DNA from: Chloroflexota bacterium
GTDB taxonomy: Bacteria; Chloroflexota; Limnocylindria; QHBO01
Reading direction: 5' to 3'
DNA length: 46,052 nucleotides
NCBI GenBank assembly: GCA_013816405.1
Contig: JACDEL010000012.1
Coordinates: 1 to 46,052, forward strand
The notes beneath the pieces are model-generated. The model did not search any database. It had not been told where the DNA came from and saw only the letters and a list, made by a program, of their open reading frames with translations. A program made the translations under genes and the position numbers. Shown here piece after piece: positions 31,733-44,152 of this stretch (its first letter is position 1; each line of letters begins with the position of its first letter).

Positions 31733-33043
31733 TTAGCGGTTTGGCAGGTGTCCGCGGCGTCGCGTCTGGACAAAGGTCGTCGCGCGCCGGCCGACCGCGA
31801 TCCGCAGCAAAGCTGTCGGCACGACCACCAGCCAATGCGATAGGAAGAGGAAGCCCCTGCCGGCCCGACCGATGAGCTCAGGCCCATGCTCCCCATGCGC
31901 CGCCAGGCCCGCGAGGGCGAGCAGGAAGCTGCCGATCCCATACCCCAGGAACAGGGAGGCCGGCACGGTCCAGTCGGCTGGGCGCGGCAGCGGGATGGTC
32001 AACAGGCTGGCGATGATCGTCGTCACGAAGAGCGGCGGAATCACGAACTCGCCGGTGAAGGCGAGGAAGTCGAGCTTCCGGCCAAGCGGCACCTCCGACG
32101 CGCGCAACAGGCCGGGGCCGAGCTCGATCAGGCGCCGGATGCTGCCTTCCGCCCAACGCAACCTCTGTCGCCACAGGCCGGGGAGCGTCATCACCGCCTC
32201 CTCTCCGACCTCCACCTGCGGGGCCAGGGCGATCCGCTCCCCCGCCGCCACCAGTCGAGTCGAGAGCTCCAGGTCCTCGGTGAGCGCGGTCGGATTCCAG
32301 CCACCGAGCCGCTCGAGGGCACCGCGACGCACGAACATGCCGTTGCCGCGCAGCTCGGCACTGCCGTCGGTCGCGCGGCGGCCGCACTGGCTCGCCATGT
32401 CCATCACCAGCTCCTCATCCTGTGCCGCCGCCAACCAGCCGTGGTCGCGGTTGCGCGCCCGTCGCTGGACCTGCATGGCGGCCGCGTCCGGATCGGCCTG
32501 CCAGGCATCCATGACCCGCGTCACGAAATCGGGGGAGACACTGGCGTCGGCATCCAGCACGCCGATCACCTCGCCTCGTATCTCGGACTGCGCGAAGCTG
32601 AGCGCCGCAGCCTTCATGGCGGGGCCGTCGCCCGCCTCACGAAACACGACCCGCAGCCGATCCGGATGCATCGCAGCGGCCTGGCGAGCCAGCGGCCCCG
32701 TTGCATCAGTCGAGCCGTCATCGACGACCACGATGTCGAAACGCGGCTCGCCGCCCAGCGCGTAGTCCTGTTCCGCGAGCGATGCGAGCGTGGCGGCGAT
32801 GACCGGCTCCTCGTTCCGGGCTGCGACGAGGAGCGTGACCCAGGGTCGACCGCCATCTGTCGAGTTGGCGCCGTGCGCGGCGCGCATGGCCTGGTAGCCG
32901 CGGAGCGCGAGATAGGCGACGTACACCAGCGACACGGCGATGGCGGCCTGCAATGCGCGCGCCACGACGGCGAAGGTGATCGCCAGCGAGGCAATGACGG
33001 CGGAGGCGATGAGGATGGAGGCCGCCACCACCCGGGTCATCAT
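31733..33043 (-). CDS. Membrane-bound GT2 glycosyltransferase (processive type)
   Basis: 436 aa from ATG 33043, overlapping the MFS stop by 4 bp. Two N-terminal membrane helices, GT-A domain with VVVDDGSTDATGPLARQ, the DXD as DADAS, acceptor/catalytic TED in ALTEDLELS and QxxRW as QRLRW, the set found in cellulose, hyaluronan and PNAG synthases. Three to four C-terminal membrane helices follow. Polymerises or transfers a sugar at the membrane; sugar unknown. Last gene of the nine-gene operon. Confidence 0.88.
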   Translation of the reverse strand: MMTRVVAASILIASAVIASLAITFAVVARALQAAIAVSLVYVAYLALRGYQAMRAAHGANSTDGGRPWVTLLVAARNEEPVIAATLASLAEQDYALGGEPRFDIVVVDDGSTDATGPLARQAAAMHPDRLRVVFREAGDGPAMKAAALSFAQSEIRGEVIGVLDADASVSPDFVTRVMDAWQADPDAAAMQVQRRARNRDHGWLAAAQDEELVMDMASQCGRRATDGSAELRGNGMFVRRGALERLGGWNPTALTEDLELSTRLVAAGERIALAPQVEVGEEAVMTLPGLWRQRLRWAEGSIRRLIELGPGLLRASEVPLGRKLDFLAFTGEFVIPPLFVTTIIASLLTIPLPRPADWTVPASLFLGYGIGSFLLALAGLAAHGEHGPELIGRAGRGFLFLSHWLVVVPTALLRIAVGRRATTFVQTRRRGHLPNR

Positions 33044-34446
33044 GGTGGTTCCGGGCCGGCGAGATTGGTGCGATGCAGCCCGCCCGCCCTGTTGTGTCGC
33101 CACGAGAGAATCCCGAGCACAAGCGTGACGAGTCCCAGGATCGCCATCACCACCGGGATCCCGGCGCCCTTGACGAGGAGGTTCACCAGGTCGGCGGCAG
33201 CCGGCGCGACGAGCACCGGGAGGAAGGATGCGACCGACAGCAGGGTGTTGAGGATGCCGAAGATGCGGCCGCGGACCTCCACCGGCAGGTCCTCCTGCAG
33301 GGCGGTCTGGGCCGGGATGGCGACGAACGCGTATTCGACGCCAGCCGTGATGGCGATCACCACCACGAGTGCGATCAGCGACAGGAGGGGGCTGAGCGCG
33401 GCCGGCAGGTTGTTCTCGATCGGCTGCAGGGCGGGCGAAAGGAAGACGGTGATCGGCTTCACCAGTGCAAGGGCGATGAGCGTCAACCCCATCGCCACCA
33501 ACCCGCAGTCAATCAGGAGCCGCCGGGGGAGGTTGGCGCCATACGCGTTCAGGAAGAGGATGCCGAGGACGGCGCCCATCCCCGCCGGACCCATGACGAA
33601 GAAGAAGTCCTGTGGACGCAGCAGGAGGATGTCGGTCGCGAAGCCGGGCCCGATGGCACCCATCACCGCGATCAGACTGGCTGCGATCCCGAGGTAGGCC
33701 AGCGACCAGGCGATCGGTCGATGGCTGCGCACGAAGGCAATCCCCTCCTTGAGCTGGTCGAAGACCACCGTGAACGCTTGCCTGGTCTCCTTCACGCCGA
33801 TCTCCGCGTGCTTCTCCGGCGGGACACTCGGCAGCGGCACGATCGCGAGCGCCGCAAGGCCGAACATCACGGCCACCACGATGAACACGGCGTCCACGCC
33901 GAGCGTCGTGAGCAGCAGCGGGCCCAGGAAGCCGAAGCCGATGGCGAAGGTCGCGTTGATCGTCAGCACGAAGGTCGAATTGGCTGCCATCAGCTGCCGC
34001 CGATCGACCAGTCGAGGGATCGCCGTCAGCTCGGCGGGCACGAAGAAGGCGGTCACGGTGGCAACCAGAAGGTTGATCAGGAAGATCAGGCCGACGTTGC
34101 TGCCAACCAGCAGGAAGAGCACGATCCCGCCGGCGCGCAGCAGGTTCGAGGCCAGCATGATCAGGCGCGCGTCGCTCCGCTCGACCAGGACCCCGGCTAT
34201 GGCGCTGAAGGCGACGGCCGGCACCAGGAAGGTCAGGATCAGGACGGCGTTGGCGGTGTTCGAGCGGGTGGCCAACACCACGGTGGCCATGAGGCCGGCC
34301 AGCACCATGTTGCTGGCCAGCTGGCTGAGCACCTGCGCCACCCACAACAGCACGAATGAGCGGTTCGCAAAGACGGAGCCGGACGGCTCGGAGACCGGCA
34401 GGTCGGCCGGCAGGTCGACGTGTGGAGGCAGCTCCAGGTGGGCCAT
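33040..34446 (-). CDS. MFS transporter (exporter-type, MFS_3-like)
   Basis: 468 aa, about 12 membrane helices with a polar loop in the middle (near EKHAEIGVKETRQAF). N-terminal cytoplasmic stretch of about 28 residues before FANRSFVLLWVAQVLSQLAS, the typical opening of EntS-like and macrolide-exporter MFS proteins. Likely a proton-coupled exporter of a small molecule. Starts 3 bp after DUF951 and overlaps the GT2 gene. Substrate unknown. Confidence 0.88.
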   Translation of the reverse strand: MAHLELPPHVDLPADLPVSEPSGSVFANRSFVLLWVAQVLSQLASNMVLAGLMATVVLATRSNTANAVLILTFLVPAVAFSAIAGVLVERSDARLIMLASNLLRAGGIVLFLLVGSNVGLIFLINLLVATVTAFFVPAELTAIPRLVDRRQLMAANSTFVLTINATFAIGFGFLGPLLLTTLGVDAVFIVVAVMFGLAALAIVPLPSVPPEKHAEIGVKETRQAFTVVFDQLKEGIAFVRSHRPIAWSLAYLGIAASLIAVMGAIGPGFATDILLLRPQDFFFVMGPAGMGAVLGILFLNAYGANLPRRLLIDCGLVAMGLTLIALALVKPITVFLSPALQPIENNLPAALSPLLSLIALVVVIAITAGVEYAFVAIPAQTALQEDLPVEVRGRIFGILNTLLSVASFLPVLVAPAAADLVNLLVKGAGIPVVMAILGLVTLVLGILSWRHNRAGGLHRTNLAGPEPP

Positions 34447-34449
34447 CGG

Positions 34450-34656
34450 TCAGGTAGCCGCCTGTGGGCCACGCTCGAGGTGCGCCGTGAAACGGCGCTC
34501 GACGTCCAGGCGATCCATCAGGATCCGGTGACCACAACCCTCACACACCAGGCCGATGTCGGCGCCGATGCGTGTCACCCGCCATTCACGGCTGCCGCAC
34601 GGGTGAGCCTTGCGTAGCCCGATCCTGTCGCCGATGCGCAGGTCGACCGCGGCCAT
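34450..34656 (-). CDS. DUF951 protein
   Basis: 68 aa. Family pattern: GDRIGLRKAHPCGSREWRV, then GADIGLVCEGCGHRILMDR. Cysteines C20, C38 and C41 suggest a small metal-binding (rubredoxin-like) fold, with one ligand lacking. DUF951 proteins are common in Firmicutes and Chloroflexota near ribosome or chromosome-segregation genes; role unknown. Starts 2 bp after the TldE stop and ends 3 bp before the MFS gene. Confidence 0.88.
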   Translation of the reverse strand: MAAVDLRIGDRIGLRKAHPCGSREWRVTRIGADIGLVCEGCGHRILMDRLDVERRFTAHLERGPQAAT

Positions 34657-34658
34657 CG

Positions 34659-36032
34659 CTAGTCCTGGGCCTCCGCCCCGGTTGCTCCGGTGAACGCGAA
34701 CTTCGCCAGCCGCAACGCAGGCACCCGCGCGTTGATGCCGGAGTACTCCGCGGCCACGAGGCGCGTCTCCGAGCCGATCGCCTCGATGGTACTGAAGGCC
34801 TCGGGGATCGACTGCGTGAAACGCAGGTTGCGAATCGGTCGGCTGATGCGGCCATCCTCGATCAGGAACGTGCCGTCCTTGGTCATACCGGTCAGGATGC
34901 CTCTCTTGGCATGGACGATGTTGACGTAATGGAGGCGGGTCACCCACACGCCGCGCTCGATCCCGGACAGCATCACCTCCTTGGCGCTGGATCCGGGGGA
35001 CATGAACAGGTTCCAGGCCATTGGGCCGAAGGCATTCGGTGCCGGCAGCCCATGACCGGTCGACGCGACGCCGGCGCGCGCCGCTGTCGCGGTGTCGTGG
35101 ACCACGGCGCGCGCGACGCCATCACTGATCAGGTCGACACGCTGCTTGGGGACCCCCTCGTAGTCGATGGCCGTCGGCAGTCCGAGCGGATCCAGCCCAT
35201 CGTCCCAGATCGAGACGTTTGGGCCCATGATCTGCTGGCCGAGGTCCATGAATGAGCGCCCCTCCTCGACCGCCAGGGCGGAGAAGCCCATCCAGGACAG
35301 GTATTCGAGGATGGTCGCGACGGCGTACTCCTCAAGAATGACCGGGTACTCGCCGGGCTCGAGGTCAACCGCATCGTGGCTGCGGGATGCCTTATCAGCC
35401 GCCTCCTCGCCGACGGCCGCGGGGTCGATTGCGCGAATGTCAGGGCCGGTCGCCTGTGCGTAGCCGGACCCGCCGTCGCCGTCCATCATCACGGTCAGCA
35501 GCTTGGCCTGGGTGACGCTGTGCGTATTGCGCATGCCGCGCGAGTTTGCAACCGCGAGGGTGGCCGTCTCGGTCGAGAAGGCTCCGCTGGCTTCGAGGTG
35601 CCCGGCATCACCGGCAGCGATCACGGCCCGGGCGCCGACAGCGCGCAACTCCGGATCGGCCCGGGCAGTGGCGGCCACGAAGCCAAGGCCCGGGTCCGCG
35701 GTGGACGGGCTCGGCGCCGCCAGCGGTGCGCCATTCGGGTTCGGCGTTGCCAGCGCCAGTGTCGCCGAGGCGCGCTCAACCACCTCGCGCAACCCCTCAT
35801 CGTCGAGCCGGTTGGTGCTCGCTACGCCGGTCCGCATGTCGCGCACCAGCCGGATCCGCAAGGTGGCATCGCGCTCCGCCACGTTCTGGTGGATTCGCGA
35901 GTTGGCGAAGCGGGTCAGCGCAGCGCTGCGTTCGGTGAAGATCGCCTCCGCCTGCGCATCGGTTGCCAGCGAGAGGGTGTGGCTCAGCAGCGACTCGAGG
36001 GCCGCGGAATCCCAGCCGAGCGGCTCTACCAT
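34659..36032 (-). CDS. TldE/PmbA-like metalloprotease subunit
   Basis: 457 aa, PmbA/TldE family, the non-catalytic partner of TldD. Family landmarks: an early TRFANSRIHQNVAERDATLRI strand, the late MSPGSSAKEVMLSGIERGVW segment and GRISRPIRNLRFTQSIPEAF near the end. It lacks HExxxH, as expected for TldE. TldD/TldE heterodimers cut unstructured peptides and trim RiPP leaders in E. coli microcin B17 processing. Overlaps the tldD stop by 7 bp. Confidence 0.9.
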   Translation of the reverse strand: MVEPLGWDSAALESLLSHTLSLATDAQAEAIFTERSAALTRFANSRIHQNVAERDATLRIRLVRDMRTGVASTNRLDDEGLREVVERASATLALATPNPNGAPLAAPSPSTADPGLGFVAATARADPELRAVGARAVIAAGDAGHLEASGAFSTETATLAVANSRGMRNTHSVTQAKLLTVMMDGDGGSGYAQATGPDIRAIDPAAVGEEAADKASRSHDAVDLEPGEYPVILEEYAVATILEYLSWMGFSALAVEEGRSFMDLGQQIMGPNVSIWDDGLDPLGLPTAIDYEGVPKQRVDLISDGVARAVVHDTATAARAGVASTGHGLPAPNAFGPMAWNLFMSPGSSAKEVMLSGIERGVWVTRLHYVNIVHAKRGILTGMTKDGTFLIEDGRISRPIRNLRFTQSIPEAFSTIEAIGSETRLVAAEYSGINARVPALRLAKFAFTGATGAEAQD

Positions 36033-37474
36033 CGACCCACCCCGACCTCGACACCACGGAAGCGCGCTGGGGCGGCGCCGTGGCCAACGCCATGCGTCTG
36101 CATGGGCTCACCCTTGCCGCAGTTGGGGACGCCCCACAGCGTCCATTCCGACAGGCCGCAGATCGCGTCACAGCTTCCCCAGAAGCGCGGCGTGATGCCG
36201 GTGTAGGTAGGGTTCTTGACCATCTGCGTCAGCCTCCCGTTCCTGATCAGCCAGCCGATCTCCGTCCCGAACTGGAAGTTGAGGCGTCGGTCGTCGATGC
36301 TCCACGAGTGGTTGGTGCTGACGAAGAGGCCGTCCGCCGTGTCCGCGATAAGGTCGTCGAGCGTGCCGGCCTCGCCTGGCCGCAGGTTGACATTGGTCAT
36401 GCGGATGAGCGGAATCACGTTCCAGCCCGAGGCTCGGCTGCTGCCCATGCTGCGGCGACCGATGATCGGAGCCGTCTCCCGGCTGGTGAGATAGCCGACC
36501 AGCCGTCCGGCCGTCACGATCGGCACCTTCTGGGCCGCCACTCCCTCGTCGTCGAAGCCGAAGGTGCCGAGCCCTCCTGGCGCGGTCGCATCGGCCTCCA
36601 TGTTCACGATCTCGCTGCCGTACTGGAGCTGGTCGAGCTTGTCGAGAGTCAGGAAGCTCGTCCCCGCGAAGCTAGCCTCCATGCCGAGCACGCGGTCGAG
36701 CTCGATCGGGTGGCCACACGACTCGTGCACCTGGAGCGCCAGCTGCGGCGAGTCGACGATCAGGGTCATCTGGCCCGACGGGCATTGCGGTGCATCCAGC
36801 AGCGCGACCGCCTCCTCGGCGATGCGATGCGCGTTGTCGGCCAGGTGAAGGTCGCGGATCGCCTCGAAGCCGCCGGTCACGTGCTGACCGCCCGCCGACT
36901 GCGGGTAGCTGCGGCGCTGTACCTCATGTTCGTTGAAGGCCATCGCCTCGATCCCCGCCCCTGAGTCGACGATCTCCTGCTCGATGCGGGCGCCCTCGGT
37001 CGAGGCGAAGGTCTTTCGCTCACGACCGAACTCCATGCTGCTGGTGCGCAGGGTGACTCCCGCGACCTTGCCCATCACCGCATCGGCTTCGAACAGCAGG
37101 CGCAGCTTCTCGTCGAGCGGCACCCCGAAGGGGTCCTCGCGATATGGGGTGTGGTACACCGCCACCGCGGGCGGAGAGTCATCCAGCACGATCGGCTCGC
37201 GCGTCGCCAGGCCACTGGCCCGCGCGATGGCCACCGCCTCGCGGGCTGTACGCTCCACCTCGGCGCGTTCCATGCGCGAGCTCCCAGCGAATCCCCAGGC
37301 TCCGTCAAGCAGCACCCGGACGCCGAACCCGGCCGACCGGTGGGATCTCGCCTCGGCGAGATCCCCGTTCTTGACGGTCAGGGACTCGGTCGTCCGTTCG
37401 ACGATCCGCATATCGGCATAACCCGCGCCAGCGCTGTGCGCGACATCGAGGGCCAGGTCAATCAACTCCTGCAT
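36026..37474 (-). CDS. tldD: TldD-like zinc metalloprotease
   Basis: 482 aa from ATG 37474, preceded by GAGG; the longer upstream frame is not coding. Zinc site HESCGH (H250, E251, H255) with a cysteine inside, as in the family, and the C-terminal FWGSCDAICG and NCGKGEP segments that complete the active site. Works with TldE to degrade or trim extended peptides in the cytoplasm. Lies 20 bp after DUF881 gene 2. Possible substrates: cellular peptides or a modified peptide; no precursor gene was recognised here. Confidence 0.93.
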   Translation of the reverse strand: MQELIDLALDVAHSAGAGYADMRIVERTTESLTVKNGDLAEARSHRSAGFGVRVLLDGAWGFAGSSRMERAEVERTAREAVAIARASGLATREPIVLDDSPPAVAVYHTPYREDPFGVPLDEKLRLLFEADAVMGKVAGVTLRTSSMEFGRERKTFASTEGARIEQEIVDSGAGIEAMAFNEHEVQRRSYPQSAGGQHVTGGFEAIRDLHLADNAHRIAEEAVALLDAPQCPSGQMTLIVDSPQLALQVHESCGHPIELDRVLGMEASFAGTSFLTLDKLDQLQYGSEIVNMEADATAPGGLGTFGFDDEGVAAQKVPIVTAGRLVGYLTSRETAPIIGRRSMGSSRASGWNVIPLIRMTNVNLRPGEAGTLDDLIADTADGLFVSTNHSWSIDDRRLNFQFGTEIGWLIRNGRLTQMVKNPTYTGITPRFWGSCDAICGLSEWTLWGVPNCGKGEPMQTHGVGHGAAPARFRGVEVGVGRW

Positions 37475-37493
37475 AATTTCCTCATTCGACCGG

Positions 37494-38165
37494 TTATTCG
37501 ACCGGCTTACCGACAGCCGGCTCCAGCGAGAGCGCGCTCGCCGGCAACCGCACAGATGCCGCCTGATGGATCTGGATGGTCGCCTTGATGAACAGCTCCA
37601 GCTGGGAAATGATCCCACCTGGGCGCTCCATCGCGCCGAGCAGTCCGTCCGGTGACCCGATCGCCTGCAGCGTGAACCTCTCTCCCACCTCGATCCCGTC
37701 GAGCTCGATCGCCCGAGGACCCTCGATCGCCACCGAGCGAGCCGTGATCCGCACGCCATCGACGGCGATGGCCTCGGCGCCCGCGTTGCGAAGCTCGTTG
37801 ATCAGGTCGTTCACCGCGATCGCGTCGAGGTCGCCATCGACGTCCATCACGATCCCCTGCCCGTCGACCGGCGCCAGGCCGCCGAAGGCGGTGATGCGCC
37901 GGAGATCCTCGCGGCTGACCTGGAGGGCGCTCTCACCCTGTGGACCGGACACCTCGTATTGCCGCAGCTGCTCGCGGATGTCGGCCAGGCCCGAGCGCAG
38001 CTCCCGATTGCGCGCTGTGAGTGTCTCGATCAAGGTCGACAGCTCGGTCGCCGACAGGCGGCTGATGGCGATCGGGCGCGCCTGGGAGTTCAGCTGTCCC
38101 ACCCCGAGCAGGCCGATCAGCAGGGCCACGGCGAAGAGCGTGGCCTGGGCAACACGACTCTTCAT
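37494..38165 (-). CDS. DUF881 protein 2
   Basis: 223 aa. One N-terminal membrane helix (TLFAVALLIGLLGVGQL), a coiled-coil stretch (about residues 40-75), then the DUF881 domain with VDGQGIVMDVDG and LINELRNAGAEAIAVDG, followed by GERFTLQAIGSPDGLLGAM. Single-pass with the domain outside the cell; DUF881 folds resemble SpoIIIAH/YlxW-type proteins of monoderms. Start overlaps the previous stop by 1 nt (TGATG). Confidence 0.88.
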   Translation of the reverse strand: MKSRVAQATLFAVALLIGLLGVGQLNSQARPIAISRLSATELSTLIETLTARNRELRSGLADIREQLRQYEVSGPQGESALQVSREDLRRITAFGGLAPVDGQGIVMDVDGDLDAIAVNDLINELRNAGAEAIAVDGVRITARSVAIEGPRAIELDGIEVGERFTLQAIGSPDGLLGAMERPGGIISQLELFIKATIQIHQAASVRLPASALSLEPAVGKPVE

Positions 38166-38917
38166 CAGGGCACCACCTCGGTCGGGACGGCCCAGCGGAA
38201 CCGGGTGTTCCCGACGAATGCGGCCAGCTGAAGGGAATCCGGCGCCTGGCTGGCGAACTCGAGCCCGAAGACCTCGATGCGCTGCGCAACGCGACCCAGA
38301 AATGCGGGACTCGTCTGGAACTGGTCGAGCAGGCCCTCGGCACCGATCGCCTCGATGCGGAAGGGCGGAGACAGGAACGCGGTGTTGACGAGCACGGAAG
38401 CTCCCACGCCGTAGATGGACGACGTTGCCACGATGCGCTCGCCGTTGATCGTGATCGCCTCCGCGCCCGAGGACCAGAGCGCGACCGCGATGTCCCGCAG
38501 GTCGTCTACCAGCACGATGTAGTTGGCGGGGTTCTCGCCGTCAGGGATCACGCGCTTGGAGTCGGCGATCTCGATGATCACGCCGGGACCTCGCAGCGGC
38601 GTCAGGCCGACGGCAAGACGCACCTCCTCGAGGCGCAGGTTCACATCGGCCAGGGCCGACGACGAGGTGGTCGACGCCTTCTGGAAGTCCAGCACCTGGG
38701 CCTCGGCCGCGACGAGCTGGGCGCGGAGGTCCCCCTGCTCCGCCTCGAGCTTCGAGACCTGATCGGCCAGGACCTGCTGCACGGAGGTGGCGAACTGGAC
38801 CCGCTCTGGCGACCCGTTCCATTGCGCATAGCCGACGAAGCCGATTACCGCCAGCGCCCCGGCGATGCTGATCGCCCATTGCGGGCTGACCAGCAGCCGC
38901 CCTCGCCGCGCGGTCAT
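38165..38917 (-). CDS. DUF881 protein 1
   Basis: 250 aa from ATG 38917, overlapping the zinc-protease stop (ATGA). Membrane helix at about residues 15-33, coiled coil (VSKLEAEQGDLRAQLVAAEA), then DUF881 with GPGVIIEIADSKRVIPDGEN, LVDDLRDIAVALWSSGAEAI and ATSSIYGVGASVLVN. Paralogue of the next gene; the pair may form a heteromer on the outer face of the membrane (inference). Confidence 0.87.
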   Translation of the reverse strand: MTARRGRLLVSPQWAISIAGALAVIGFVGYAQWNGSPERVQFATSVQQVLADQVSKLEAEQGDLRAQLVAAEAQVLDFQKASTTSSSALADVNLRLEEVRLAVGLTPLRGPGVIIEIADSKRVIPDGENPANYIVLVDDLRDIAVALWSSGAEAITINGERIVATSSIYGVGASVLVNTAFLSPPFRIEAIGAEGLLDQFQTSPAFLGRVAQRIEVFGLEFASQAPDSLQLAAFVGNTRFRWAVPTEVVP

Positions 38918-40206
38918 GGGGACGCGTGCCGGCGGCGAGCGGCGACGAGGGCAACGACGACTCCCATTCCAAGTCCCGCCACGATCACTGCCGGGATCCA
39001 CCCCGCACCGCCGCCGGATTCGGCAGGCTGCCGGGACGACGAAGCCGAGGGGGCAGAGCTCTCCGTTGCGGGCGCGGCCGGCTGGGGTGGCCTGTCGACA
39101 TTCGATGGCAGGATTGGTGCCGGCTCGACCGCCGTGGGCGCCGCGACGCCGTACGAGGCGAAGTACGCGTCATACAGCTGGTCGGCCGTGACGCCCGTGC
39201 CCGCTTCAAGCGCCTCCGCATCGCCCGCCCCGTCCTGCCATGCGGCAGCAATGGCGGCGATCGCACCGCGGCCGTAGGTATTGATGACCATCTGGACCAT
39301 GGTGGCACCCTCATCGTAGGCGAGGCGCGCAGCCTGGTCTCCGATCGGGAACGACTCGGTGATTCCGTCGAACGCAAGAAGCGCACTCGCATCCGCGGCC
39401 GATCGGACCGCAGCCTCATGCCCACTCGCCGACTGCTGCTCGGACCACACCGCCAGGCCCTCGTTGAACCATTTGGCCGGATCGTGGAACGGGTTCGCGG
39501 TCACGTCCTGGAAGACAACATGCGTCACCTCGTGGGTCATCGTGGTCTCGAGGTAGCTGCTCGACCCGCCTCCCAGCCACATGAAGATCGTGCGCAGCGC
39601 AGGAAACGTCGCTGCGCCGGTCCATTCTCGAGCTCCAGGTCCCAGCGCGCCGAAGAAGTCGTTGCGGGAGTCGTAGACGAAGATGTCGATCGGGCCCGCC
39701 AGGTCGTGACCCAGCAGCGTCTCTGCCGCAGCCGCAGCGTCCGCGGAGACGGAGCCGAAGTGACGAGCCTGCGCCTCGGCCCCGCCGTACCAGTGCACCG
39801 TCGCCGCCGCGATCCGCGCCGAACGCCAGTCAAGCCCTGGGCGGTCGTCGTCGTAGAGGAGGGTCTTCTCGGGGCTGAGGGTCACCTCCTCGCCGTTTGT
39901 CGCGCGCCATCGATACGCGATCGAGGTGTTCGGCGTGATGGGCTCTGCGGCGGTGTCCCTGACAAACTCGGCGCTCAACGGTCCCGGATCGACGGGGACG
40001 ACCACGGTGGAGTCGGAGCCTGCGAATCGCAGCAGGAGCGCGAGCTGGTCGGGCGAGCCGCCCGGTAGCTGGACGGTGAAGCGCATCCGGCCCCCATAGG
40101 TCGCGTCCGCGGTCGTGGAGCCAAAGCCGCTGAACGCGGCAGCCGGAATCGGGATGGCGACGATCACGGCCAGCACGATCGCCGCCAGCAAGAGCCCTCG
40201 TCGCAT
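38914..40206 (-). CDS. Membrane-anchored zinc protease (peptidase MA / gluzincin-like)
   Basis: 430 aa from ATG 40206. N-terminal signal helix ending around IPAAAFSG, beta-rich N-domain, then HEVTH (H225, E226, H229) and the third ligand Glu in WFNEGLAVW about 25 residues later, a gluzincin layout. After a Pro/Ala/Ser-rich linker there is a C-terminal membrane helix (WIPAVIVAGLGMGVVVALVA) and a basic tail, so the protease domain faces outside. Substrate unknown. Overlaps both neighbours (ATGA). Confidence 0.82.
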   Translation of the reverse strand: MRRGLLLAAIVLAVIVAIPIPAAAFSGFGSTTADATYGGRMRFTVQLPGGSPDQLALLLRFAGSDSTVVVPVDPGPLSAEFVRDTAAEPITPNTSIAYRWRATNGEEVTLSPEKTLLYDDDRPGLDWRSARIAAATVHWYGGAEAQARHFGSVSADAAAAAETLLGHDLAGPIDIFVYDSRNDFFGALGPGAREWTGAATFPALRTIFMWLGGGSSSYLETTMTHEVTHVVFQDVTANPFHDPAKWFNEGLAVWSEQQSASGHEAAVRSAADASALLAFDGITESFPIGDQAARLAYDEGATMVQMVINTYGRGAIAAIAAAWQDGAGDAEALEAGTGVTADQLYDAYFASYGVAAPTAVEPAPILPSNVDRPPQPAAPATESSAPSASSSRQPAESGGGAGWIPAVIVAGLGMGVVVALVAARRRHASP

Positions 40207-41780
40207 CACTGCTCCCACGACACCCTGCCGAGGTCCAGAAGGCCGGTCGTCAGGTTGCCGAGGCCCCGCAGACCGGGCCGCACCAGCCACCAGCCGGCGC
40301 CATAGGCCCACGGAAGGACGGGCGCCTCGCTATCGACGCGATCGTCGACCGCCCGGTAGGCAGTGGCCTGTTCCGCATCGGTCTCGGCGGCAGATGCGAC
40401 CTCCAGCAGCCGCACGAATTCAGGATCGTTCCACCCGCCATAGTTGCTGGTGGCGGCGGGCAGCAGGAGCAGGCTGTAGAGCGCATACGGCGATGGGTAG
40501 TCGGCGATCCAGTTCATCGTGAAGACCTGCGGCGGGTCGTCGACCAGCGCCTGGAGGTAGTCGCGAAACTGCATCGTCTCGACCGTGATGTCGACGGCCA
40601 GCTCCTTCTCCCAGACCGTCACGGCCGGTCCCACACCCAGTCCGGAGCCATTCACCGTGATGGTTCCCAGGCGCGTCCGGTCGGTGTAACCGGCCGCGTC
40701 GAGAAGGCGGCGCGCCTCCCCCAGGTCGGTCACCTGGTCGTCCTCCAGGCCGTCCGGCCAGAGTGCCGGCGGCACGATGCTCGACGCAGGCGTGCCGCTG
40801 CTTCCCTCCGCGTTCGTGACGAGGCGCGGCCTGTCCAGGGCGAGGGCGAACGCTCGGCGCACCCGCGCGTCATCGAATGGAGGTCGCGTGGTGTCGAAGC
40901 CGAAGAACTGGATTCCGAGCGCCGCCGAGCGGTGGAGCGACGGCCCGAGATCGCGGTCGTAGGCAATCCAGCCGGCATCGAACGAGCCCACGCTGGTGAG
41001 GTCTACCTCGTCGTTGGCGAAGGCCGTCGCCGAGTCCCCGGTCAGGTTCGTGACCCATCGGATCTCCGCGATGGGGGGCGCCCCGGCGACGTATCGATCA
41101 TTGGCGCTCAGGATCAGGTCGGCGCCATCGGTCGCGCGGGTGACGTACGGCCCGGAGCCGATGAAGCTGTCGATCGACTGCCAACTGTCGTCCGTGCCGG
41201 TGGCGTTGCGCGGGACGACGAACGCGGTCGGAGTCGCCGTGATGGCCGGGAAGTACGCAGCGGGATGCCTGAGACGCACGGTCAGCGTCCGGGCATCGGG
41301 TGCATCGACGGCCACGCCATTTGCCGGACCGCCGGCAAGTCGCTCCGCCGCGCCTTCGATGATGCTCAGCACGTCCGGCGCGCTCGACCGCGTGGCAGGA
41401 TCCAGGATCCTGAGCCACGAACGGCGGACATCGGTGGCGTCGAGCGGACTGCCATCGCTGAACGTCAGCCCAGCTCGCATGTGGAACGTGTAGGTGCGGC
41501 CGTCCTCGCTGACCGACCACGATTCGGCCAGCGACGCATATGGCTTGCCATCCTCGTCCAGGCGTGTCAGGCCCGCATACAGCTGAAGCAGAAACTGGAC
41601 ATCGCCAGCGGTGTCGATGAAGGCCGGATCGCGGGTCGCGGGCTCGCCGCCGACGTAACGCAATGCCGGTTCGGCTGCGGAGGCGGGATGCGCCGGCAGC
41701 GATGAGGTGAAGGCCAGGAGGATGGCTGCGATGCCTGCGACGAGGCGCGGCAGCCGGTCCCGCGAGGTCAGGCGGCGCAT
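40206..41780 (-). CDS. Secreted peptide-binding-like protein (SBP_bac_5), no permease nearby
   Basis: 524 aa from ATG 41780. Sec signal with AxA cleavage (A33-S-A35), not a lipobox, so the mature protein would be released or retained by other means. Family features: LRYVGGEPATRDPAFID, GLTRLDEDGKPYASLAESW, then YTFHMRAGLTFSDGSPLDA. First gene of the large minus-strand operon; no transporter genes follow, which is unusual for a binding protein. It may act as an orphan peptide or chaperone-like binder with the adjacent zinc protease. Leaderless start 9 nt after TATACT. Confidence 0.85.
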   Translation of the reverse strand: MRRLTSRDRLPRLVAGIAAILLAFTSSLPAHPASAAEPALRYVGGEPATRDPAFIDTAGDVQFLLQLYAGLTRLDEDGKPYASLAESWSVSEDGRTYTFHMRAGLTFSDGSPLDATDVRRSWLRILDPATRSSAPDVLSIIEGAAERLAGGPANGVAVDAPDARTLTVRLRHPAAYFPAITATPTAFVVPRNATGTDDSWQSIDSFIGSGPYVTRATDGADLILSANDRYVAGAPPIAEIRWVTNLTGDSATAFANDEVDLTSVGSFDAGWIAYDRDLGPSLHRSAALGIQFFGFDTTRPPFDDARVRRAFALALDRPRLVTNAEGSSGTPASSIVPPALWPDGLEDDQVTDLGEARRLLDAAGYTDRTRLGTITVNGSGLGVGPAVTVWEKELAVDITVETMQFRDYLQALVDDPPQVFTMNWIADYPSPYALYSLLLLPAATSNYGGWNDPEFVRLLEVASAAETDAEQATAYRAVDDRVDSEAPVLPWAYGAGWWLVRPGLRGLGNLTTGLLDLGRVSWEQ

Positions 41781-41788
41781 GCGGAGGC

Positions 41789-41795
41789 TAGTATA
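41789..41795. promoter_or_regulatory. Overlapping divergent -10 elements
   Basis: TAGTATA reads TAGTAT on plus (41789-41794) and TATACT on minus (41795-41790). The plus GTG (41803) is 8 nt away and the minus ATG (41780) 9 nt. Only 22 bp separate the two start codons. Confidence 0.6.
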
Positions 41796-41802
41796 CGAGC
41801 CC

Positions 41803-42339
41803 GTGCAGCCGACCCATGACCACCGCTTTCGGCCGCAGCCCGCGGGCAGTCTCACGCTCAGACAGTTCGTCGAGTCACTTCGCCGATGGACGCCCGAGAT
41901 GCGGCAGGTTGCCCAGATCGCGTTGACTCGGTCGGAGACTGAGCGCCAGCAGTACCTCCGGGCGTTTCATGAGCGTCATCACGATCGCGAGCCCAAGCCG
42001 ATCGACTCCTTCGTCCGCTGGGCCTACTCGGACCCCCGGCTCGATCACGTCCCCGCGTTGCTGGCTGAGATCGAACGAGGCGAGGCTGACTACGAAAGCG
42101 CCCTGGAACACGAGGCTGATGTGCTGGTGCGGACCCGCGCGCACGGCAAGACGCCGGCCCAGCGCGTGCACGACTACCTCGCCCTCCTGGGGATGGAGGG
42201 GAGCGAGCCGGTGCGGGCCGCGATCGCAGGTCTGCTGCCGTCCGCCACCTCCGATGCCGCGGTGGTCGCAACCGTGCGCCAGATGCGCCGCCGGTGGTTG
42301 GAGCTGTTCGGCGACGATCCGTTCTTTGCCGAGGAATGA
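41803..42339 (+). CDS. Hypothetical helical protein
   Basis: 178 aa from GTG 41803. Largely alpha-helical with charged repeats (LRQFVESLRRWTPEMRQVAQ, ALLAEIERGEADYESALEHE). No membrane segment, no cysteine motif. Leaderless start from the divergent promoter. Overlaps the next gene by ATGA, so coupled. Family not recognised; codon use is normal for the region. Confidence 0.7.
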   Translation: MQPTHDHRFRPQPAGSLTLRQFVESLRRWTPEMRQVAQIALTRSETERQQYLRAFHERHHDREPKPIDSFVRWAYSDPRLDHVPALLAEIERGEADYESALEHEADVLVRTRAHGKTPAQRVHDYLALLGMEGSEPVRAAIAGLLPSATSDAAVVATVRQMRRRWLELFGDDPFFAEE

Positions 42340-43106
42340 ATAGCCGATTCGTCGCCGCGTCGCTGATCGCCGCTGCGCTCGTGCTGCTGGCTCCGATCCC
42401 GGTGTGGGCCCGCGCGCTCGGCGGGATCTTCACGCTGCCAGTCCCGCTCGCGCTGTACCTGGTCGCCGCTGGCGCGACGGTCGCCGTCTCCTTCGTGGTG
42501 GCGGTGGTGCTGGTTCGTCCCGCCGGACCGGTCGCCCGCTACCCAACCCGCCCGCTGAGCATGGACATGGCGAGCAGATCGCTGGTCGCCCTGCAGGTGA
42601 TTGGCCTTCTGTGGTGGTTCGGCACTATCCTGCTCGGCCTGGTCGTCGATCCCATCTCGCCGTTCCCCGCGGTGCTGTTCTGGATCGGGATCTGGGTGGG
42701 CCTGCCCATCATCTGTGTCCTGTTCGCCAATCCCTGGCCCGCTCTGAGCCCGTTCCGCACCGTGTTCACAGGGCTGAAACGACTGGCCAGGCTCATCGGT
42801 TTCGACCGCCTCGATGCGGCACTACGCTATCCGGCTCGCCTCGGCCGCTGGCCAGCGACACTCCTGCTGGTAGGTGGGGTGTGGGCAGAGCTGATCCTCC
42901 CCGGATCGCACTGCCCCGAGCACCCTCGCCGTCCTCGCGCACCGGCGCGCGCTGCGCGATCGGCACATCGCCCAATCCTGGCCGGCCTGTCACTGGTGGC
43001 GTTGATGATCGGCTACACGGTCCTGAGCCTCTGGATCATCGCCCTGCCGATCACCCAGGAGCCCGGCCACAGCCCGGCAACGGCGCTGGTTCGCGGATGG
43101 ACGTAA
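42336..43106 (+). CDS. FedA-like multi-pass membrane protein, probably internally deleted
   Basis: 256 aa from ATG 42336. N-terminal signal-like helix, then segments resembling the membrane proteins annotated as fenitrothion hydrolase (FedA): VLFWIGIWVGLPIICVLFAN, LSPFRTV, YPARLGRWPATLLLVGGVWA. Those are around 400 aa. After about 42895 this frame becomes Pro/Arg-rich for 20 codons, while another frame reads ILPDRTAPSTLAVLA; a last helix (LVALMIGYTVLSLWIIALP) returns in the first frame. So one or two indels or an internal deletion are likely. Overlaps ccdA by 10 bp. Confidence 0.5.
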   Translation: MNSRFVAASLIAAALVLLAPIPVWARALGGIFTLPVPLALYLVAAGATVAVSFVVAVVLVRPAGPVARYPTRPLSMDMASRSLVALQVIGLLWWFGTILLGLVVDPISPFPAVLFWIGIWVGLPIICVLFANPWPALSPFRTVFTGLKRLARLIGFDRLDAALRYPARLGRWPATLLLVGGVWAELILPGSHCPEHPRRPRAPARAARSAHRPILAGLSLVALMIGYTVLSLWIIALPITQEPGHSPATALVRGWT

Positions 43107-43807
43107 GCCTTGCCCTGGCCTTCGCGGCGGGACTCCTCAGCTTCGTCTCTCCATGCGTGCTGGCGCTTGTTCCGGTCTACCTCGCCTTCCTGGGCGAGTC
43201 GGCGACGGCCGACGGAGCTGGAACGGCAGCGATCACCTGGCGCGGCCCGGTCTTCACCCAGGCGCTCCTCTTCGTGGCTGGCTTTGCCGTCATCTTTCTG
43301 CTGCTCGGCACCTCGGTGGGCCTGTTCGGCAGCTTCCTTTTCCGGATCGATGTCGCTCGTCAGCTGGCCGGCGCGGTGGTCATCGGAATCGGGCTCCTCA
43401 CCACCGGCATCTTCGGACCGGTGCTCGATCGCTTCATGCGCTTCGGCGTTCGGACGGATCGCCTGCCCGACGCCCGAGCGGCCAGGGCGCTGACGCTGGG
43501 GGCGCTCGTGGCGATCGGCTGGACCCCCTGTATCGGCCCTGTCCTTGGCGCAATCCTGACCATGGGCGCTTCGAGCCGGGACGCATGGGTTGCGGCGCTC
43601 CTGCTGATCGCCTATTCCGCCGGGCTGGCTGTTCCCTTTCTGGCTGCGGCGCTGGCGTTGCCGCGCATTCAGCCCCTGCTCAATGCCCTGCGCCGCCACC
43701 ATCGGGCCGTGCAGGTCGTCTCCGGCCTCTTCATCATGGGGATAGGTGTGCTCATCCTGACGAACGCCTTCGCCCGCATGGCAGGGCTCTTCACCTTCTT
43801 CATCTGA
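43097..43807 (+). CDS. ccdA: CcdA/DsbD-type thiol-disulfide transmembrane transporter
   Basis: 236 aa, about six membrane helices, the CcdA size. The two functional cysteines are in the expected places: C20 in LLSFVSPCVLALVP and C145 in GWTPCIGPVLGAIL. Moves reducing equivalents across the membrane for cytochrome c maturation or other secreted thiol enzymes. Overlaps the upstream membrane gene; no cytochrome c assembly genes or thioredoxin partner in the window. Confidence 0.93.
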   Translation: MDVSLALAFAAGLLSFVSPCVLALVPVYLAFLGESATADGAGTAAITWRGPVFTQALLFVAGFAVIFLLLGTSVGLFGSFLFRIDVARQLAGAVVIGIGLLTTGIFGPVLDRFMRFGVRTDRLPDARAARALTLGALVAIGWTPCIGPVLGAILTMGASSRDAWVAALLLIAYSAGLAVPFLAAALALPRIQPLLNALRRHHRAVQVVSGLFIMGIGVLILTNAFARMAGLFTFFI

Positions 43808-43819
43808 CGAGGTACACCG

Positions 43820-44152
43820 ATGCACCCCGCCCTGTGGCTCGCGCTGGCGATCGGCTCGGAGATCATCGCCACCGTCTCGCTCAAGCTGTCGAACGGGTTT
43901 ACCCGACCGGGTCCGGCAGTGGTCGTGGTGGCAGGCTATGCGCTCAGTTTCTACGCGCTCTCGATCACCCTGCGGACCATCCCGCTGGGCGTGGTCTACG
44001 CCATCTGGTCCGGTGTGGGGACCGCCGCGATCGTCGTGATCGGTCTCTTCCTCTTCCGCGAGACGCTCGACGCTGCGAAGGTGGTCGGTATCGGCCTGAT
44101 TATCGCGGGGGTCGTGATGTTGAGCGGAGTGGGTGCCGCGACCGCCCAGTAG
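43820..44152 (+). CDS. SMR-family multidrug efflux protein (EmrE-like)
   Basis: 110 aa, four membrane helices. Essential E14 in the first helix (LAIGSEIIATVSLKLS), and the TIPLGVVYAIWSGVG segment of the family. Acts as a dimer exchanging protons for quaternary ammonium or guanidinium-like cations. GAGG Shine-Dalgarno upstream. Last gene of the plus-strand unit that begins at 41803. Confidence 0.9.
   Translation: MHPALWLALAIGSEIIATVSLKLSNGFTRPGPAVVVVAGYALSFYALSITLRTIPLGVVYAIWSGVGTAAIVVIGLFLFRETLDAAKVVGIGLIIAGVVMLSGVGAATAQ

Follow-up and report, generated by a model that had tools for sequence, protein, structure and literature searches.

A conserved heptamer as the candidate core of a bidirectional promoter shared by two apparently leaderless operons in a family of Chloroflexota

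In the analyzed window, i.e., the whole 46,052-nt stretch of DNA (contig C78 of a 2.5-Mb genome that is 95% complete), two divergent operons are separated by 22 bp with the heptamer TAGTATA at the centre. Judging from the sequence and with a probability of about three in four, this heptamer is the −10 core of a bidirectional promoter of the sigma-70 type in the TAnnnTA configuration, and both transcripts would be leaderless or would begin within ~3 nt of the start codon. It is very probable that the apparently leaderless operons do share a two-way promoter. The reading is based on the sequence, the spacing, the conserved −10 hexamers and start codons, and the genome-wide use of the leaderless signal; from these we infer transcription in both directions, the exact start sites, that polymerases exclude each other, and that the minus direction is the stronger one.

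Structure of the Junction

The intergenic region (41781–41802) lies between the minus-strand ATG (41778–41780) and the plus-strand GTG (41803–41805), and the layout is likewise compact in all relatives. The heptamer (41789–41795, no strand assigned) is composed of two overlapping hexamers of opposite orientation. The putative −10 hexamer of the plus operon, TAGTAT (41789–41794, plus strand), is 8 nt from the GTG, and its first T, 14 nt before this codon, falls into the 12–15 nt peak of leaderless genes described below. The putative −10 hexamer of the minus operon, TATACT (41790–41795, minus strand), is 9 nt from the ATG, with the first T 15 nt before it. The layout given in the original prediction, namely a 22-bp gap with TAGTATA at its centre and −10s 8–9 nt from the starts, was borne out by this reading of the sequence. 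Neither start codon of the junction is preceded by a Shine-Dalgarno match at the usual distance, and both starts thus carry the sequence pattern of leaderless (TA-led) genes. A scan of the 46-kb window for overlapping opposed TANNNT hexamers framed by starts at 12–15 nt returned this junction only.

Among the prokaryotic bidirectional promoters with symmetric −10s described by Warman, Grainger and colleagues, TAnnnTA is the most frequent configuration (18 bp); it pairs the −7T of one direction with the −11A of the other and prevents polymerases from occupying both orientations together (PMC12825309, PMC10268837). The overlapping opposite-strand −10s at 41789–41795 have this geometry. The start separation reported for bidirectional promoters is 7–25 bp (PMC12825309, PMC10268837). 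When the start codons are taken as transcript starts, their spacing (23 bp in the window, 21–23 bp in the relatives) is within this range; it is larger than the 18 bp preferred for transcript starts, which is a point against the bidirectional reading.

The −35 element of each promoter had been expected inside the opposite gene. This expectation found no support: the best TTGACA-like matches 15–19 bp upstream of the two −10s have only 3/6 and 2/6 bases, and in the leaderless genes of the congener G002 the best match averages 2.57 bases, versus 2.51 in shuffled sequences (sd 0.04), which is no clear excess of −35 elements. The junction therefore does not have the form of a classical sigma-70 promoter with a −35 box. 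Since everything lies within ~22 bp, it may be regarded as a near-minimal promoter of two operons. A search for RNA elements gave only a sub-threshold malK-III match lying inside a gene, which was rejected.

Genes of the Two Operons

The first gene of the minus-strand operon (40206–41780) encodes an extracellular solute-binding protein of family 5 (SBP_bac_5, Pfam PF00496, E 2.9e-68). According to Pfam, the remaining eight genes (31733–40209, minus strand) encode Peptidase_MA_2, two DUF881 proteins, TldD, TldE/PmbA, DUF951, MFS, and GT2 proteins, and adjoining genes overlap slightly or are up to 20 nt apart. Since none of the nine genes was recognised as encoding an ABC permease or ATPase, the solute-binding protein looks like an orphan.

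As for the plus strand, the first gene (41803–42339) encodes a 178-aa protein without Pfam or NCBIfam matches. The second (42336–43106), overlapping the first by ATGA, encodes a 256-aa protein without a Pfam match. They are followed by genes of a DsbD/CcdA-like membrane protein (43097–43807, PF02683) and a small multidrug resistance (SMR) protein (43820–44152, PF00893). The gene spacings are consistent with the proposed nine-gene and four-gene operons.

Conservation in Related Genomes

The 178-aa protein was present in 19 of the 101 genomes of the comparison set, all from the family of the source organism (nine genera), and was seen in this family only. Public records with the gene are labelled Chloroflexota with one exception, JAICUY010000023.1, titled Steroidobacteraceae, which carries the Chloroflexota junction and the gene at 80% identity; its bin or label is probably wrong. 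Orthologues of the solute-binding protein seem to exist beyond the family (~35–43% identity).

The divergent pair of the 178-aa protein gene and the solute-binding protein gene is kept in all 19 genomes, i.e., in the source and 18 relatives (in G005, the minus gene was read mainly from a second contig). The original prediction had named conservation of the heptamer and its spacing in related genomes as a check. TAGTATA is unchanged in 19 of 19 junctions, with a minus-side ATG or GTG 6–8 nt beyond it and a plus-side GTG or ATG 7–8 nt beyond it, and no relative has the divergent pair without the heptamer. All seven heptamer columns are invariant, compared with 2 of 13 flanking intergenic columns (Fisher p = 0.0005), although the 19 genomes, being related, amount to fewer independent observations than their number. 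That TAGTATA is a functionless AT-rich heptamer arisen by chance would agree with the count of bare TANNNTA in the window, which is at chance level (6 found, 5.7 expected). This explanation is refuted by the invariance between variable flanks and by the fixed start distances in genomes that are not near-identical (16 distinct junction sequences), and its probability is negligible.

Two bases of the heptamer belong to one hexamer each: T41789 to the plus −10 and A41795 to the minus −10. Both are invariant in the 19 genomes. In leaderless genes of the congener, the base before the −10 is a T in 6% and the base after it is an A in 8%. Since the bases unique to each hexamer never change, the comparison points to selection on both −10s.

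The start codons assigned to the two genes would be very close to the transcript 5′ ends, the predicted distance being ≤2 nt for the ATG at 41778–41780 and ≤3 nt for the GTG at 41803–41805. In the source genus, the plus frame is open up to an in-frame ATG at 41779 within the palindrome GCATGC, the other strand of which supplies the minus ATG. An upstream plus start was rejected in 12 of the 19 genomes, where an in-frame stop lies directly upstream of the assigned start and the intervening bases hold no other start codon; in nine of the 12, the TAG of the heptamer provides this stop. A start 3′ of the heptamer is thus correct in the 12 genomes, and the GTG at 41803 is correct here by homology. 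The minus start is likewise without a possible upstream alternative in four genomes. GCATGC (the 41778–41781 region) places an ATG on both strands at one site, so two reading frames could overlap there in the source genus; relatives with GCAC do not have this feature.

Leaderless Starts in the Lineage

Genome statistics were taken from G002, a nearly complete congener of 2,283,462 bases and 2207 called genes; its counts are approximate because the gene caller was home-made and starts were picked by codon usage. TANNNT with the first T 12–15 nt upstream was found at 282 of 2206 starts of G002, an approximately tenfold enrichment over the background of ~7.4 per position, which suggests that leaderless starts are an ordinary mode in the lineage. 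A Shine-Dalgarno peak is also present, indicating that not all starts of the lineage are leaderless.

This second peak, together with the existence of divergent genes with promoters in each other's coding sequence, might be taken to mean that both genes at the junction have leaders, their transcripts beginning within the opposite gene and including the spacer as part of an ordinary leader. Such an arrangement appears very improbable, given that neither start has a Shine-Dalgarno match at the usual distance and that the coding sequences next to the junction are less conserved than the heptamer.

Among the leaderless −10s of the lineage, the minus TATACT stands at the 74th percentile and the plus TAGTAT at the 15th. 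The plus hexamer is atypical, with no exact copy among the 282 leaderless −10s and T at the fourth position in only 3.5% of them, and this is a further point against the bidirectional reading. The much stronger minus hexamer would fit a heptamer that serves mainly the solute-binding protein operon, with the plus hexamer being incidental and the plus gene expressed otherwise. Nevertheless, T41789 lies outside the minus hexamer and is still invariant, the plus start is held 7–8 nt away in all 19 genomes, often with an in-frame stop just upstream, and any other promoter before the plus start must fall inside the minus gene. A one-way promoter is therefore considered unlikely, though it is the most probable of the alternatives. 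Under the bidirectional reading, the same difference between the hexamers suggests that the solute-binding protein operon would be transcribed more strongly than the plus operon.

Of the 289 divergent gene pairs of G002, 5 have overlapping −10s of opposite orientation between two starts of the leaderless type. An overlapping −10 on the antisense strand accompanies 11 of the 192 leaderless genes whose neighbour is divergent, versus 1 of the 209 whose neighbour is co-directional.

Other Divergent Junctions and One-Way Controls

Two of the four other G002 pairs with overlapping opposed −10s are widely conserved; orthology at these junctions was defined by the best match per genome only. The first is a Mur-ligase-like gene opposite an M20 peptidase gene (G002:C4, about 430702–430726), with the palindromic core AGTATACT and the configuration kept at 15 of 18 loci. 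From genus to genus its minus hexamer differs (TATACT, TATATT, and others) but retains the form TANNNT, as selection for two −10s would predict. The second is a HAD hydrolase gene opposite an HD-domain gene (G002:C4, about 633832–633853), where the configuration is kept at 10 of 15 loci. Its heptamer TATCGTA is unchanged in all 10, and the gap between the start codons is as short as 17 bp. The BrkB/LigD pair keeps overlapping −10s in 4 of 15 cases, and the EamA/inositol-phosphatase pair in 2 of 2.

These junctions also bear on the proposal that TAGTATA is a binding site of a regulator of both genes, with the promoters elsewhere. The heptamer is invariant and contains the palindrome GTATAC, as an operator might. 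On the other hand, the conserved stretch of 7 bp and two isolated flanking columns is short for an operator, and its position relative to both starts matches the genome-wide leaderless −10 signal. In addition, TAGTATA occurs only twice in the 2.28-Mb G002 genome, and the TANNNTA heptamers at the other divergent junctions have different sequences. An operator is thus improbable, somewhat more so than a one-way promoter.

As for −10s that serve one direction, a gene resembling thyX by its N-terminus has six different hexamers, with none found in 6 of 20 cases. The −10 of ligD hardly varies (TACCCT in 13 of 15), including loci where the promoter of the divergent neighbour has moved away. On the idea that bidirectional −10s change more slowly than one-way −10s, the two one-way controls compared are mutually discordant, the thyX-like −10 being variable and that of ligD nearly fixed.

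Discussion

The conserved heptamer, its spacing, the start codons, and the leaderless signal of the lineage support the original prediction of a symmetric −10 shared by two divergent, (near-)leaderless operons. According to the proposed mechanism, the housekeeping RNA polymerase would sit on 41789–41795 in either orientation, never in both together. Facing the minus direction, it would read TATACT and transcribe the solute-binding protein operon; facing the plus direction, it would read TAGTAT and transcribe the operon of the small protein and the DsbD-like and SMR proteins. Each transcript would have its 5′ end on the first nucleotide of the start codon or 1–3 nt upstream, leaving no room for a Shine-Dalgarno sequence, so translation would proceed as on leaderless mRNA.

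Bidirectional promoters with symmetric cores, leaderless genes, and divergent leaderless neighbours are already known. The junction resembles the promoters of Warman, Grainger and colleagues in the opposed −10s on one TAnnnTA core and in a start separation within 7–25 bp. It differs in being apparently leaderless in both directions, with ~20–23 bp between the starts and no recognisable −35, and in having a core that is invariant across nine genera. In those promoters, competition between the directions matters only when one of them is strongly active (PMC12825309).

TA-led bacterial genes have TANNNT ~12 bp upstream of the start, a pattern with a free middle in high-GC genomes, and account for ~4–6% of genes in those Chloroflexi genomes where they were found (PMC3160421). 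The junction has the same motif at about this distance; the TA-led signals are one-way, whereas the junction core would serve two directions. The share in G002 is ~13% of called starts, compared with the above ~4–6%, the methods being different.

In Mycobacterium tuberculosis, the divergent neighbours prpD (Rv1130) and Rv1129c both have mapped leaderless mRNAs; closely juxtaposed divergent promoters were called common in that work, and TANNNT was found without −35 (PMC3898074). The junction is similar in its divergent neighbours, both predicted to be leaderless here, and in TANNNT without −35. Unlike the junction, the M. tuberculosis pair includes a regulator as one partner.

What seems to be new is that such a core is conserved deeply and base for base within a family of Chloroflexota, and that this compact design recurs at other junctions. 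Most of what is known about bidirectional promoters comes from the mapping of transcription starts in model bacteria, and the junction adds comparative evidence: across the family no base of the core has changed, and the two partner genes and their start codons have kept their places on either side of it. It is conceivable, though we hold this only tentatively and consider it less probable than its opposite, that ultra-compact leaderless promoters of the two-way type (~17–24 bp start-to-start), lacking a −35 and an operator, form a class employed by the family; in these, competition for one polymerase site, unchanged across genera, would balance two unrelated operons. The junction may serve as a clean case for testing if two operons can be coupled by nothing more than competition between polymerases.
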